58,783 nucleotides of DNA. It comes from Thermoplasmata archaeon. Lineage in GTDB: Archaea > Thermoplasmatota > Thermoplasmata > Thermoplasmatales > Thermoplasmataceae. Position 1 is the first letter of the stretch; each line of letters opens with the position of its first letter. The translations under genes were made by a program, and so were the position numbers. Below, piece by piece: positions 3,875-58,783 of this stretch. Below the pieces are notes generated by a model. That model was not told the origin of the DNA, did no database searches, and saw only the letters and a list, made by a program, of their open reading frames with translations. The stretch spans positions 1 through 58,783 of the forward strand of contig JAJYRA010000016.1 in NCBI GenBank assembly GCA_021794355.1. The letters are read 5' to 3'.

Positions 3875-4612
3875 GTGAATAAATTTATCCCCAATGGCGT
3901 TAAGATACTGGTTAATTTCAACCTCTCAAGGGCATTTAGTTCCGTTTATGGTATTTTTTATCTGTTGATCGGAATAGCCATGCCTATCACCTTTTCTGCT
4001 ATTCTTCTATCTTCCTTCAAGTCTATTATAGAATCGCCCGCATTGACTTCCGTTTTGAGGCAAACGATTCCCGCTTTCATTCCCCTTATGGTTACCATAG
4101 GAGGGATGGGTGTGACATACCTATTTTCAACTGACCGGTCAAATGGAGTGTATGAGTATTTGATAGCCACCGGAAAGATCAAGATTAAAGATATTTTTCT
4201 ATCATTCTCAATCGTTACAATATTATTAATATCAATAATTTTAGGGATAGATCTCACAACTATTTTCGTGATAATAAATTTCATGACCCCATCAATTGCC
4301 GTGAACATGTTTGAATTGATTGTGGTTTTCTCTATTCCCGTTTCATATGTATCATCGTTGATTTCCATACTCGCAATGTTGACATGGGTGTCGATGTCCA
4401 AAACGTATCCGGGAGTGAATGCGCCTGGAGGGGTCGGTTCTGTCATTGGTTTTATCCCGCCCTTAATTTTTTTGATCGTCATAGTCCGGATTTTCCATCC
4501 CTTGGACATTGTTTTGATTGGTGGATTATTCTCCATCGCCCTCATTATGATATTCATTGTTCTGCTCGTAGTCGTGGTAAGGAGTATGTCAAATGAGAGA
4601 ATGCTGACATAG
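3875..4612 (+). CDS. ABC-2-type transporter permease
   Basis: 245 residues starting at GTG 3875, with a good GGAGG ribosome-binding site about 10 nt upstream. Six hydrophobic segments are spread over the whole length, with the spacing of ABC-2 permeases, and a re-entrant-like GGMGVTYLFSTDRSNGVYEYL stretch between spans 2 and 3 resembles the conserved cytoplasmic coupling helix. It follows the ATPase gene directly and forms its membrane partner. Substrate unknown; the surrounding surface-protein genes suggest an envelope or secretion role. Confidence 0.85.
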   Translation: MNKFIPNGVKILVNFNLSRAFSSVYGIFYLLIGIAMPITFSAILLSSFKSIIESPALTSVLRQTIPAFIPLMVTIGGMGVTYLFSTDRSNGVYEYLIATGKIKIKDIFLSFSIVTILLISIILGIDLTTIFVIINFMTPSIAVNMFELIVVFSIPVSYVSSLISILAMLTWVSMSKTYPGVNAPGGVGSVIGFIPPLIFLIVIVRIFHPLDIVLIGGLFSIALIMIFIVLLVVVVRSMSNERMLT

Positions 4613-4960
4613 ATCTTAAAACTGGGTTCCATCTTATTTTAGCCTAAATCTTAGATTAGATAGGTGAGATTCCTAAGAAATTCATCGTCCTGAGATTTCT
4701 AAGAGTTGCCTATATCATCCTCTATGGATTATTATGGCATCTGGCGTATCACCACCCTTTTCATTGAATTCTACAACTATGTAGTCAATATTTTATTGGT
4801 GAATATTTCTAAAACCCCCAGTTTCTTCAATCAAGAGTCAATGAATTGAAAGATGTCAATTGCCTGTGAAGATCAGTAAACTTTATCCACTTGAAAGTGC
4901 ACTGACTCATATTTATTAAATAAAACCCAGTTTTATGATTTAAACATATCTCTTTCACGA
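4613..4960. other. Intergenic, no gene seen
   Basis: About 350 bp of AT-rich DNA with no open frame that looks coding and no RNA gene recognised. The right end carries the promoter of the next gene. Confidence 0.4.
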
Positions 4961-23466: not shown

Positions 23467-23576
23467 CAAATCCCCTCGAATGAAACTCTGTGCGTGAGTA
23501 GGATGGTTAATTTGGGTACAAATGGCATACCATTCCCGTATCCTACCAACCTAACCTTTTTCCTTTTGATATCCAT
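23466..23576 (-). CDS. Micro-ORF of leader module, copy B
   Basis: 36 codons starting MDIKRKKVRLVGYGNG, with GGTGA eight nt before the ATG; the frame is open back to an ATG at 23615 (49 codons). It is homologous to the micro-ORF at 54167-54280: 12 of the first 19 residues are identical and seven of those use different synonymous codons, the mark of selection on the peptide. Its stop overlaps the start of the cyclodeaminase gene by one base, so translation is probably coupled. No known family recognised; the pattern K-V-x-L-V-x-Y-G faintly resembles AbrB-like beta strands. Confidence 0.55.
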   Translation of the reverse strand: MDIKRKKVRLVGYGNGMPFVPKLTILLTHRVSFEGI

Positions 23577-23699
23577 CTTCTTTTCACCATTCCCCATTTC
23601 TTTCCTGTTTTTCATCGTGGTGTTAAAGGTTCCACTTCAGCTTTTGCGCCCTCCGTTATGAAACATGCCCCTCCCCTTGAGGGATATGAATGACGTTAT
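23577..23699 (-). ncRNA. Candidate leader RNA, copy B (reduced)
   Basis: Immediately after the EtfD-like stop, the minus strand shows the same order of blocks as the folded leader at 54557-54640: GTCA, a hairpin with CCCT/AGGG arms, GCGCAAAAG-CTGAA (copy A: GCGCAAGAG-TTGAT) and CCTTTAACACC (copy A: GCTTTAATAAC), then the micro-ORF. The outer stem is degraded and about 230 bp present in copy A are missing. It may be a decayed or minimal version. Confidence 0.4.
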
Positions 23700-50075: not shown

Positions 50076-51991
50076 TTTGAAACCCTCTTGAGAATATGGA
50101 CGGGTTTGAATTCTGGTGTGAGTCGCACATAATTCTGCCCATCAACCCATGAATAACTCTCCTGATTATATATATCCATAACATTTATTCTGCTGTAACC
50201 CTTCCATTCCTCCGGCATGTCAACCATGGCCTCCTGAACTTCAAAGGGGTTGAGATTGGCTATTATGAGTATTTTATCCCGGTCAAATCCCCTTGTATAT
50301 GCCATGATCGATGGGTTATTTGTTCTGAGGAATTCCAGGTTTCCCCTTTCCTTCAAGACCCTGTTGCCGGAACGAATGGCATTTAACCTAGTTATCTCCT
50401 CCCTGATATTTATTGGGTCTTCAAAGTCCCTTTTCTTGATTTCATACTTTTCAGAATCGAGATACTCTTCCCTTCCTGGAATAGGAGTATCTTCACAGAT
50501 CTCATAACCACTGTAAATCCCCCATGATGACGATAGGGTCGCAGCAAGTATGGCCCTTATGATGAATTGCGGTCTGCCACCGGATTGAAGTGTGTGTGAC
50601 AGTATATCAGGGGTATTGGTGAATAAAACTGGAGTGAAAAAAGAATTTATTTCAGAGCTGTTCAGTCGCTGAAAATAATCTCGTATCTCCCAGTCAAGGT
50701 TTTTCCATGTGAAGTAACTGTACGATAACTGGAACCCCACCTTACTGAGGCGATACATGAGATTCTCAGTGGTGAATGATTCACTGAGAAACACCGTGTC
50801 CGGATACTTTTGCCTGACAGACTCCAGCAGCCATTCCCAAAAACCTATGGGCTTGGTATGCGGATTATCCACCCTGAATATCCTTATGCCCACGGAAGCC
50901 CAATAAAGGACCACTTTCTTCAGTTCTTCCCACAGGGCCATCCTGTTTTCTGAATAGAAGTTCAGTGGATAGATATCAAAATATTTCTTTGGCGGGTTTT
51001 CAGCATATCTTATGGTGCCATCAGACCTCCTATAGAACCATTCGGGATGTTCCTTAACATAGGGATGATCCGGTGAGCACTGGAAAGCAAGGTCCATTGC
51101 TATTTCCATGTTTCTTGATCTTGCTTCACTGATCAGGAATTTAAAGTCTTCCAGTGTTCCCAGTTCTGGTTCTATGGACATGAACCCTCCCTTATCACTG
51201 CCAATGGCCCATGGACTTCCGGGATCCCCCTTTTTATTGGGTATTACGCCATTTTTTCCCCTTCTGTTTGTCTTTCCTATGGGGTGTATGGGAGGTATAT
51301 AAACAACATCGAAACCCATTCCCTTCATATAGTCAAGCCTACTGGCAAAATCTCTCAGTGTTCCCCTTGTCTTTCCCTCCGGTGGCTGGGATCTTGGAAA
51401 TGCCTCATACCATGCCATGGATAATTCATCTCCAAGTACTTCCACCCTGTAAGGACCCACTTTTGCACGGGAATACTTTTCGTCATACCTGTCCAGTAAT
51501 TTTGAGAATTTCTCCGGGATTAGAGCAAGATCTTCCCTGGATGGATTTGCTGAATTCAGTATTCGCCACATCTCCCTGAATCCTCTCCTGTTTTTTCCCC
51601 TGGCTTTATTTTCCATCCTTGCCACTCTTTCCTTCAATTCCAGCAGATCACTGCTTATATTTTCCCCTGCCTCTATCCAGGCCAGAATCCCTCTTATGAT
51701 TGTTGTTGTCCTGTCAACCCATGCCTCTATGGAAAACGTATAGTTCCCCTTGGATTGCATAAGTACTGTTGTTCTGAAAACATCTTCCTGACCAGTATTT
51801 TTCATCTCTTTCTCCTCAATCCTTTTTCCCCTTTCATTCTTCAGGATAACTTTTGCTCTCAGGAACTGGTGTGAGTTTGCATATATTACCGCCTCCACAG
51901 GCATAAAATCACCTGATCTGGCCCTGGCCGACCTCTTACCCGAATCCACTACTGGTGCAACTTTTTCAATGTATGTATCTTCATATTTCAT
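50072..51991 (-). CDS. glgE: Alpha-1,4-glucan:maltose-1-phosphate maltosyltransferase
   Basis: 639 residues, GH13_3. N-terminal beta domain and helical insert (residues 1-180), then the barrel with YIPPIHPIGKTNRRGKNG, D375 in FRVDNPHTKP and E404 in FLSESFTTEN. This is the GlgE layout and length. Extends alpha-glucan with maltose units from maltose-1-phosphate. Overlaps glgB by 11 bp. Confidence 0.95.
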   Translation of the reverse strand: MKYEDTYIEKVAPVVDSGKRSARARSGDFMPVEAVIYANSHQFLRAKVILKNERGKRIEEKEMKNTGQEDVFRTTVLMQSKGNYTFSIEAWVDRTTTIIRGILAWIEAGENISSDLLELKERVARMENKARGKNRRGFREMWRILNSANPSREDLALIPEKFSKLLDRYDEKYSRAKVGPYRVEVLGDELSMAWYEAFPRSQPPEGKTRGTLRDFASRLDYMKGMGFDVVYIPPIHPIGKTNRRGKNGVIPNKKGDPGSPWAIGSDKGGFMSIEPELGTLEDFKFLISEARSRNMEIAMDLAFQCSPDHPYVKEHPEWFYRRSDGTIRYAENPPKKYFDIYPLNFYSENRMALWEELKKVVLYWASVGIRIFRVDNPHTKPIGFWEWLLESVRQKYPDTVFLSESFTTENLMYRLSKVGFQLSYSYFTWKNLDWEIRDYFQRLNSSEINSFFTPVLFTNTPDILSHTLQSGGRPQFIIRAILAATLSSSWGIYSGYEICEDTPIPGREEYLDSEKYEIKKRDFEDPINIREEITRLNAIRSGNRVLKERGNLEFLRTNNPSIMAYTRGFDRDKILIIANLNPFEVQEAMVDMPEEWKGYSRINVMDIYNQESYSWVDGQNYVRLTPEFKPVHILKRVSK

Positions 51992-54170
51992 TTTTTTCCC
52001 CTCTTTCTAAAATCAGGCATCCCAGTGGCGGTAGTGTCAATTCCGCAGAGTGATCCAGGTTGTGCCACCATTTATGGGTAGCCTGCACTTTCCCGTTATT
52101 TCCAACACCTGATCCGCCGTAATACTGGGAATCTGAGTTGAATATTTCCATCCATTCACCAGATCCCGGTAAACCTATCCTATAACCGTATCTGACCACT
52201 GGGGTGCAATTAAAGACGAAAACAAGAAAATGATCTGATTCAAGGTCTCTCCTCATGAATGAAAATATGCTGTTTTCCCTGTCTAAATAATCGATCCACT
52301 GGAAAGAACTACCGTTAAAGTCTTCCCTCCCAAGAAAAGTTCTGGTTTTATAGATTTTATTGAGATCCCTGATGGTTTCCCTCACACCCAGCATAAACTC
52401 ATCTGTTATTGGGGAGTTCAACAGGCCCCTGGAAAAGTTCCATTCTTCTGCAGTGGCAAATTCGTCCCCCATAAACATCATCTTTTTTCCCGGAAAGGCA
52501 AACATGTATGAATAAAGTAATCTCATGTTTGCAAATTTTTGCCACCTGTCTCCCGGCATTTTTTGGAGAATAGACCCCTTTCCATATACAACTTCATCAT
52601 GGGATAGGGGTAGGATAAATCTTTCAGAAAATGAGTACCAGAAGGAGAATGTGATCCTATCCTGATGATATTTTCTGTGTACGGGATCATAGGAGAAATA
52701 TTCCAGTGTGTCATGCATCCATCCCATGTTCCACTTCATGTCAAATCCTAGTCCGCCGGACTCTTCCCTTGCTGTTACACCGGGCCATGAAGTGGATTCT
52801 TCTGCAATCATGACCGCACCCGGATAGGATCGATGTATGTGTCTGTTCAGTTCCCTGAAGAATGCTATGGATTCAAGATTTTCCCTTCCGCCATATATAT
52901 TGGGCTCCCACTCACCGTTCTTCCTGGAGTAATCAAGGTAAAGCATTGATGAGACAGCGTCTATCCTGATTCCATCAATGTGATATTCCTTTATCCAGAA
53001 AGATGCATTTGAAATGAGAAAATTGATTACGTGTGGTCTTCCAACATCAAATGTATATGTTCCCCAATCCGGTTGTTCCCTTCGTTTTGGGTTTTCATAT
53101 TCATAAAGATGAGTGCCGTCATACATTCCCAACCCATAGTAATCCTTGGGAAAGTGAGCCGGGACCCAGTCGAGAAATACGCCTATATTGTTTTCATGCA
53201 GGGAGTTTACGAGGTGCTTGAACCCCTCAGGATTGCCATGACGGGAAGTTGGAGAATAATAGTTAACTACCTGATATCCCCAGGAGTCATCAAGGGGGTG
53301 TTCCATAACTGGAAGGAACTCCACATGGGTGAACCCGTTTTCTTTCAGGTATGGAATAAGCTTATCCTCAATTTCCAGATAGGATGCGTACATTGACTCG
53401 TCCTCCCTTATCCATGATCCCAGATGCATTTCATACACAGAAATGGGTTTCTGAAGTTCGTTGACAGCGAATCTTTCCCTCGTCCAGGTATTATCCGTCC
53501 ATTTGAAACGATCCCTGTATGCAAGGGAGCCTGTTTTCGGCCTTAACTCAGTCTTAAAGGCATAGGGATCACTCTTTTCCAGTATCTCACCAGTTCCTGT
53601 CCTTATGGCAAATTTATAGATCTCATCCTCCTTTATGTCCGGTATGAAAAGAGACCATATACCTGAGTTTTCAACGTTTAGCATGGGGTGACTTCCCGTT
53701 GTCCAGTGATTAAAATTGCCCATGACAGAGACGCATCTTGCATTTGGAGCGTATACCGTAAAGTTCATTCCATGACATTCTGGGAACCTCACAAAGTGAG
53801 CCCCCATGAATTCGAATGCCCTGTAATTTTTCCCGGAAGTGTATGAAGAGATATCCTCATTCTTGATTACTGGATCAAAAAAATATGGATTGTGTTTCCG
53901 ATTCACATACCCGGATTCATCCTGGTAACACACTAAAATATTCCTTGTGTTCCAGTTTTTATTTGCTGCAAATTTGAAAACTTTATCCCTCTGTTCCTCC
54001 GGTGTTTTTTTAATATCGTCATATTCTATCCATGCCTCCTCTGCCAGGGGAAGATAGGTATAAAAGTTTATTTCATTGCCCTGGTTGAACGATCTTAATA
54101 GATCGAAGGCTTCATAGAGATTAAAGTCCCTCATTGCGGACAATTTATTTTTAGTAACTGCAGGATTCAT
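51981..54170 (-). CDS. glgB: 1,4-alpha-glucan branching enzyme
   Basis: 729 residues, GH13_9 branching enzyme with two N-terminal beta domains (the second, residues 120-220, a CBM48). Catalytic D404 (GIRIDAVSSML) and E457 (MIAEEST), with the conserved DWVPAHFP and SWGYQ. Introduces alpha-1,6 branches. First enzyme gene of the operon; its ATG overlaps the stop of the micro-ORF 54167-54280 (ATGA). Confidence 0.95.
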   Translation of the reverse strand: MNPAVTKNKLSAMRDFNLYEAFDLLRSFNQGNEINFYTYLPLAEEAWIEYDDIKKTPEEQRDKVFKFAANKNWNTRNILVCYQDESGYVNRKHNPYFFDPVIKNEDISSYTSGKNYRAFEFMGAHFVRFPECHGMNFTVYAPNARCVSVMGNFNHWTTGSHPMLNVENSGIWSLFIPDIKEDEIYKFAIRTGTGEILEKSDPYAFKTELRPKTGSLAYRDRFKWTDNTWTRERFAVNELQKPISVYEMHLGSWIREDESMYASYLEIEDKLIPYLKENGFTHVEFLPVMEHPLDDSWGYQVVNYYSPTSRHGNPEGFKHLVNSLHENNIGVFLDWVPAHFPKDYYGLGMYDGTHLYEYENPKRREQPDWGTYTFDVGRPHVINFLISNASFWIKEYHIDGIRIDAVSSMLYLDYSRKNGEWEPNIYGGRENLESIAFFRELNRHIHRSYPGAVMIAEESTSWPGVTAREESGGLGFDMKWNMGWMHDTLEYFSYDPVHRKYHQDRITFSFWYSFSERFILPLSHDEVVYGKGSILQKMPGDRWQKFANMRLLYSYMFAFPGKKMMFMGDEFATAEEWNFSRGLLNSPITDEFMLGVRETIRDLNKIYKTRTFLGREDFNGSSFQWIDYLDRENSIFSFMRRDLESDHFLVFVFNCTPVVRYGYRIGLPGSGEWMEIFNSDSQYYGGSGVGNNGKVQATHKWWHNLDHSAELTLPPLGCLILERGEKNEI

Positions 54171-54280
54171 ATAACTTCCCCCAGGGAAACCCCATGGGAA
54201 AGTGTGGGATAGAATTGGGCAGTGAATCTCACTCCTTTACCGTATTTTACCAGTTTGACCTTTTTCGTGCTTATGTCCAT
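54167..54280 (-). CDS. Micro-ORF of leader module, copy A
   Basis: 37 codons starting MDISTKKVKLVKYGKG, with GAGAGGCG upstream of the ATG. The frame is open further to 54556, but that part covers several perfect hairpins and has RNA rather than protein character. The peptide shares 12 of its first 19 residues with copy B at 23466-23576, largely through different synonymous codons. Its stop overlaps the glgB start, so glgB translation probably depends on it. No known family; the peptide is short and basic at the start. Confidence 0.6.
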   Translation of the reverse strand: MDISTKKVKLVKYGKGVRFTAQFYPTLSHGVSLGEVI

Positions 54281-54286
54281 CTTTTT

Positions 54287-54645
54287 TTCGCCTCTCTTTT
54301 TTTTTGGAAAAATATCCGCAGAAACCACGAGTAGATTCTTTCGACCCACCGTCCAGACTGCGTTGCCCTGTGCGTCCACATCGGGGTTGTTAGAGGGTGT
54401 TTTTAAGCTCGGCTCACTGAGAGTTTCCTCTCTGTTTAAAGACTTCATTATCCCATTGTGGGACGAGTTACAGTTGCTACGGACTTGTGGAGCATCCGTA
54501 GGTGTGAATGTATTTCTCCAATCTAACTTCTGCTTTTCTTTCATGTTCTTCTCCATGTTATTAAAGCCCCCTGATCAACTCTTGCGCTGCCCCTCGCGAG
54601 GCAAGACCCCTGTGTCAGGGGTAGTTGACTTTTTTCACTTTTAGG
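54287..54645 (-). ncRNA. Candidate structured leader RNA, copy A, ahead of the glgB operon
   Basis: The 5' part folds into a three-way junction with no unpaired bases between helices: outer stem GTCAACT (54629-54623) with AGTTGAT (54580-54574), enclosing hairpin ACCCCTG-ACA-CAGGGGT (54622-54606) and hairpin CTTGC...GCAAG (54605-54581). Further hairpins follow: CTACGGA/TCCGTAG (54501-54477), TCCCA-CAA-TGGGA (54463-54451) and GAGAG-GAAA-CTCTC with a GNRA loop (54432-54419). A TATA box lies about 40 nt upstream. GC content is higher than in the flanks. The order 5' tail, compact scaffold, then ORF recalls HEARO/omega RNAs of IscB systems, but no nuclease is encoded; this link is only a hypothesis. 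Confidence 0.6.
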
Positions 54646-54665
54646 TTATGGATAATATAACGGTT

Positions 54666-54676
54666 CTTTATATATG
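54666..54676 (-). promoter_or_regulatory. TATA box of the glgB leader transcript
   Basis: CATATATAAAG on the minus strand. A start 25 nt downstream, near 54645, would begin the transcript about 16 nt before the outer stem of the leader RNA. Confidence 0.5.
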
Positions 54677-54975
54677 ATTTTTCCAAAAATATAATATATG
54701 ATCGCCATTCTTTGGCCCGATTGAGAATTATCCAGGAGAGTTTAGGTGAAATGAACATTAAGGGAAGGGAACTGAAGACAAAAAGTCTGCCTTTGAATAC
54801 CATCCATTGCATTATTCCAGGTTCACTGATATTAATTTGGTATCTACCCCGGCATATTAAGGAAAAGCGGAAGGGTCGACACCATGTTACCATTTAATGA
54901 TCTGAACATATTTCCATACTTCTTTGTCAAAGAAAAATTACAATAATCATAAATAATCCCCATAAATGTCTAAGA
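54677..54975. other. Divergent intergenic region
   Basis: About 300 bp between the glg leader promoter and mrp. A 61-codon plus-strand frame (54712-54897) has no recognised domain and no clear translation signal, so it is not called. Confidence 0.35.

Positions 54976-55994: not shown

Positions 55995-58783
<2,789 letters not shown>

Follow-up and report, generated by a model that had tools for sequence, protein, structure and literature searches.

The window analysed here, that is, the whole 58,783-nt stretch of a Thermoplasmata archaeon contig, carries on its minus strand glgB (51981–54170), the first gene of a glgB-glgE-treS-like operon, which encodes a glycogen branching enzyme with the Pfam domains CBM_48, alpha-amylase and Alpha-amylase_C. 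Between the promoter region of glgB and its start codon lies an insertion of about 460 bp that is recognizable as a solo omega-RNA element of the IscB family whose nuclease gene has been lost. The TATA box of glgB (CATATATAAAG; 54666–54676, minus strand), which is conserved before glgB in genome G008 and has a similar counterpart in G012, stands 36–37 nt before the insertion point. At its other end, the element abuts ATGA (54167–54170, minus strand), the glgB start codon plus the next base, which occupies the place of a target-adjacent motif (TAM) according to the alignment of right ends, the empty sites and the NTGA motif of DtIsrB. The long and puzzling leader before glgB is explained by this transposon copy. 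Elsewhere in the window, an archaeal LSU rRNA (56042–58783, minus strand) runs off the contig end.

Fold, covariation and identity of the leader RNA

The initial annotation had described three helices packed around a junction, and both the coordinates and a fold of the minus strand bear this out. In the outer stem (S1), GUCAACU (54629–54623) pairs with AGUUGAU (54580–54574), with a 17-nt hairpin at 54606–54622 (SL1) and a 25-nt hairpin at 54581–54605 (SL2); the hairpin with a GAAA loop (GAGAGGAAACUCUC) and the micro-ORF that had been noted alongside are present as well. The description fits the sense strand of glgB, which is the minus strand: there the seventh pair of the outer stem is G-U, whereas on the plus strand A would face C as a mismatch. 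The minimum free energy fold of 60 nt of this strand contains the packed junction with 0 unpaired nucleotides between the helices (−26.2 kcal/mol; z = −3.5), and none of 200 shuffles folded equally well; with longer flanks, the energy of the junction region weakened to z-scores of only −1.4 to −2.6. As the fold energy is less striking with more flank, homologues were sought, and it is these, not the energy, that are decisive. Across 25 copies, 89.9% of the cells are paired and double-sided changes occur in 12 of 21 pairs. Covariation among Thermoplasmata homologues, proposed earlier as a check, was found in the same 25 copies (score 0.286 versus 0.180 in shuffles, with 0 of 500 shuffles reaching the observed value), and family-wide S1 and SL2 covary as well as SL1. 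The three-way junction (54574–54629) is therefore confirmed as real and located on the minus strand; its arrangement is that of the DtIsrB omega RNA (PMC9581776).

At the gathering threshold of Rfam, the LSU rRNA was the sole match in the whole window, and no HEARO was reported. At a relaxed E-value, the suggested search with the HEARO model (RF02033) returned a full-length match on the minus strand, from 54629 to 54370 (model positions 1–211 of 211; 73.6 bits, E = 5.4e-15), which lies below the gathering cut-off of 83 bits. The relatives L006, L009 and L021 score 107–112 bits, and L006 (112.5 bits) is 82% identical to the window copy over 326 nt, a kinship that marks the window RNA as a divergent HEARO copy by descent from members passing the threshold. 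The resulting IscB-type omega-RNA scaffold of 260 nt (54370–54629, minus strand) could be aligned with 23 relatives, and its first position, 54629, is the left end of the element. The junction forms the 5' part of the HEARO model and is the counterpart of the region at the 5' end of the DtIsrB omega RNA (S1, SL1 and SL2) that has been named guide adaptor (PMC9581776). The DtIsrB omega RNA consists of a 20-nt guide followed by the scaffold (PMC9581776), and by analogy we predict a guide segment at 54630–54649 (minus strand), in the host 5' flank of the left end, which is native glgB 5' region. At the 3' side, the solo omega-RNA subfamily has a terminal hairpin (ACGGUGGGU/AUCUA-C-UCGU; 54327–54352, minus strand), which is weak in the fold of the window copy alone and has counterparts in L006 (GACGGG..GUCGAAAGAC..CCCGUC) and in the full element L034. 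We also observed, inside the omega RNA at about 54443–54465 (minus strand), an insertion of 21–22 nt (CCCACAATGGGATAATGAAG-like) that is common to only three copies (the window copy, L008 and L186) and possibly marks a subfamily.

Intact relatives and decayed copies

A blastn search of the window's own genome with 54200–54700 retrieved three further copies of part of the region. In a same-family search of 77 genomes, matches were found in 16, many of them multicopy and patchy, and in these relatives the match falls into two blocks, one 5' and one 3', whose spacing varies, which is how a mobile element with internal deletions behaves. In Thermoplasmatales archaeon E-plasma (G029; KI542678.1), a frame of 445 codons lies between the two blocks; it carries RRXRR and HNH domains, is assigned to the NCBIfam family guided_IscB (RNA-guided endonuclease, E = 1e-109) and resembles the solved IscB and IsrB structures. 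This full element (L034) combines HEARO at 1394–1624 with the IscB gene, and the position of HEARO 5' of an ORF for an HNH endonuclease (IscB/IsrB) is seen in it and in others, not in the window. The guess that the leader might be a relic of a HEARO- or omega-like RNA-guided element has thus proved right, given the end-to-end HEARO match on the minus strand and the intact relatives with IscB. An omega RNA of the TnpB/IS605 right-end type was dropped as a candidate, because the intact relatives encode IscB and the RNA lies 5'.

Of the IscB gene, the window element retains only the last ~35 codons, the rest being deleted. This remnant (54194–54298, minus strand) is 77% identical over 35 residues to the IscB of L034, and the micro-ORF reported earlier (54280–54167, minus strand) is the same remnant. 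That a small conserved protein might be encoded ahead of glgB was also considered and dropped: Pfam and NCBIfam returned nothing, and the ORF consists of omega RNA and IscB C-terminus. Throughout the genome (89 contigs, ~3% missing), the RRXRR domain is absent and only C-terminal IscB fragments were found, at five places including a second solo copy in the window; at least four more element remnants exist besides the glgB copy. One intact and one partial Y1 transposase (Y1_Tnp) are encoded elsewhere in the genome and none in the element. The second window copy (23467–23690, minus strand, 5' end at ~23690), identified by its IscB remnant and the right-end alignment, is shorter and more decayed; it retains an IscB C-terminal remnant at 23511–23597 and abuts the ATGA start (23466–23463) of another gene, the junction reading MKFITEKDVEENLK... 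Taken by itself, the copy before glgB is not an active IscB system; it is probably an immobile or trans-mobilised passenger, now forming the long leader of the glgB transcript.

A related solo copy, L006 (G038; 353 bp), matches the layout of the window copy, and additional members occur in G041 and G023, which points to the solo omega RNAs as a subfamily that has spread. In five intact elements (G042:C24, G042:C17, G042:C55, G025:C31 and G027:C37), a frame of 480–483 aa runs from inside the omega RNA into IscB, and L035 (1236–1673) is listed with them; judging from these frames, the RNA scaffold of intact elements may also be read as protein. The copy L002 (G000:C75), directly behind a PCNA-like gene, has an intact-looking outer stem and an early stop; the element is truncated there, and no right end was found for it.

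The fold might reflect DNA only, with end hairpins read by the Y1 transposase and a MITE-like passenger in which no omega-RNA function is left. We regard this as a minority possibility that deserves real weight: subterminal palindromes lie at both ends, a Y1 transposase and no IscB was found in the genome, and for DtIsrB the guide-adaptor DNA matters for transposon activity while SL1 is dispensable for nicking (PMC9581776). Against it, S1 and SL2 covary no less than SL1, the match to the whole 211-position HEARO model is far more than end recognition needs, and solo copies retain the 3' hairpin of the RNA.

Insertion at start codons

In G008 and G012, which belong to the same genus, glgB lacks the element and thus represents the empty site. 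The region upstream of glgB in both genomes aligns with the left flank in the window (GGAAAAATCATATATAAA) and is followed by ~36 nt and then ATGAAT; the aligned flanks place the element exactly at the boundary of the glgB promoter/5' region and ATGA, and no sequence is duplicated. The lack of a target duplication and the subterminal palindromes at both ends are traits of the IS200/IS605 type, and an NTGA-type motif (ATGA, 54170–54167) directly follows the element. A solo copy of the same subfamily was observed in another genus (L191, 3143–3413; G023:C31), where it lies in a glgB-glgE-treS operon before the glgE start; this insertion is independent, since it concerns a different gene start from that of glgB.

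The right end of the window element (54171–54215, minus strand) comprises a subterminal palindrome, GGGGG and the end that abuts ATGA, and an alignment of 58 right ends gave the consensus CCTTGGGGGnAGTnAG, then ATGA. The 57 right ends that were followed further downstream show ATGA (49), GTGA (2) or ATGG (2) in the junction column, with RTGA in 51 of 57, a set in which four orthologous insertions are counted twice (L099/L109, L093/L107, L034/L133 and L088/L136). Frames of at least 100 codons open at 47 of the 57 junctions, and true starts are also present at RpoK and in one misaligned case; family-wide, the RTGA start codon of a host gene directly follows about 49 of 57 right ends. A few others (L105, L132, L128 and L131) fall within genes or apparently non-coding stretches. 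The family search covered the glg genes only; by eye, other host genes have N-termini like those of LeuRS, HisRS, ArgH, NuoB, GatE, GrpE, PurE, RpoK and others. DtIsrB prefers an NTGA TAM (PMC9581776), which makes ATGA and GTGA starts natural targets.

The right ends also appear suited to translation of the downstream gene. An SD-like motif precedes the ATG in 52 of 57 (GGAGG in 30, GGGGG in 11 and weaker forms in 11); in the window it is GGGGG (54182–54178, minus strand), 7 nt before the AUG. A leader ORF of 129 aa (54167–54556, minus strand) runs through the omega RNA, and its TGA stop overlaps the ATGA of glgB; its upstream part corresponds to the stretch by which the IscB frame is extended N-terminally in intact relatives (the 480–483 aa frames). 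The IscB gene of E-plasma ends in a TAG stop that directly adjoins the host ATG. All three copies of the leader ORF in the window's genome end at the host junction, and of the solo copies inspected, those in the window, L003, L004, L006, L185, L186, L188, L189 and L036:13590 keep the frame open up to the junction, while it is broken in L190, L037, L042 and two L036 copies. The right end is so built that TTAGATGA stops two of the three frames, and the leader ORFs share a common descent; this frame evidence is therefore only suggestive of the idea that, upon insertion, a host gene becomes a translationally coupled cistron and is thereby spared.

The predominance of start codons might instead stem from survivorship, with insertion at any RTGA and purging of in-gene copies by selection. 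Some copies do lie inside genes (L105, L132), and of 12 iscB genes on bacterial plasmids only 2 have a gene start no more than 30 nt from their end. However, among the 1168 RTGA sites of the window, 18 are gene starts and 193 are intergenic according to a rough gene caller; intergenic sites are thus about ten times commoner, yet nearly all copies sit at starts, so that start codons are over-represented even among harmless sites. On these grounds we consider pure survivorship rather unlikely. A start-codon preference of IscB elements everywhere was also considered and rejected, given the plasmid counts, while a few cases outside Thermoplasmata do fit. Among the latter, the IscB right end abuts a gene starting with GTGA in a Tepidanaerobacteraceae bacterium (L163, 3176), the start of an apparent rpoH (by eye) in Ca. 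Ethanoperedens and the start of an apparent archaeosine transglycosylase-like gene in Ca. Borrarchaeota; the two archaeal cases are those of L161 (~4150–4650) and L158 (~4100–4700).

Co-option as a cis-regulatory glycogen leader, for instance through a switch between CCCCUGA in SL1 and UCAGGGG just 3' of S1, is very improbable: the RNA does form part of the 5' leader on the sense strand of glgB, the alternative pairing appears in the centroid fold and the G023 copy precedes glgE of the same operon, but copies of this RNA precede dozens of unrelated genes, glgB of G008 and G012 does without it, and the glgE insertion is independent, one shared operon in ~50 sites being unsurprising by chance. 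A glycogen riboswitch is rejected on the same empty sites, and the earlier guess of a regulatory leader of glycogen synthesis is not supported as a conserved function; the element may affect glgB expression in this particular genome.

Proposed mechanism and relation to known systems

We consider it highly likely that the locus holds an IscB/HEARO transposon without its nuclease, a solo copy inserted exactly at the junction of the glgB promoter/5' region with ATGA, for which we infer movement in trans, translational coupling and a guide RNA made from the host promoter. In such a scheme, a Y1 transposase would move solo copies in trans into RTGA targets, among which start codons would be the favoured surviving sites, with the right end supplying a ribosome-binding site. 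The element-borne leader ORF would end at the host AUG and make the host gene a translationally coupled cistron, while the host promoter would transcribe guide and scaffold. In genomes having IscB, a matching IscB could cut the empty allele, which would favour retention of the element.

More tentatively, and with a confidence just short of even, we propose that the Thermoplasmata IscB omega lineage is specialised in host start codons: ATGA and GTGA starts would serve as its TAM, the right end as a portable ribosome-binding site and stop, and the omega RNA as a leader cistron; essential genes would be spared, the host promoter would produce a guide RNA from the gene's own 5' region, and solo copies would keep the coupled ORF. 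Inserted right before start codons, and apparently equipped with its own ribosome-binding site and stop codon, the element illustrates how an RNA-guided transposon of the Cas9-ancestral family can live inside essential operons. It raises the testable question of whether OMEGA transposons choose their targets to suit gene architecture and have their guide RNA made by host promoters. In Thermoplasmata, standalone omega RNAs can also score under the Rfam threshold and stay unannotated. HEARO, the IscB omega RNA, standalone omega RNAs and NTGA motifs are known, and HEARO integration next to ATGA or GTGA was reportedly described by Weinberg in 2009. This leaves the use of start codons, the SD and the coupling as what may be new; a literature search, with most subscription journals outside its coverage, returned no description of elements that use start codons and bring an SD and a stop of their own.

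Compared with HEARO (RF02033) and the omega RNAs of IscB and IsrB, the window RNA shares the full-length covariance match, the guide adaptor of S1, SL1 and SL2, the location 5' of IscB in intact relatives and the NTGA-type motif after the element. It differs in that the window copy is sub-threshold and without IscB, in that an open frame runs through the RNA of this family into the IscB frame, and in that the solo copies of the archaeal subfamily have a distinct 3' hairpin. Standalone omega RNAs that IscB uses in trans are reported (Altae-Tran 2021, cited in PMC9581776); the window locus likewise has no nuclease gene of its own, but no IscB partner was found in this genome, and the copy is bounded by both transposon ends and lies at a start codon. 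In TnpB systems, the omega RNA derives from the 3' end of the gene and carries its guide at the 3' end. These systems share with ours the RNA-guided nuclease family and the transposon superfamily, whereas the window scaffold and its predicted guide are at the 5' end. The MITE/PATE elements of IS200/IS605 resemble the window copy in their subterminal hairpins at both ends, the absence of a target duplication, the fixed tetranucleotide at one end and a transposase acting in trans; unlike them, the window copy keeps a complete omega RNA, and its right end gives an SD-like motif and a stop at the host AUG.
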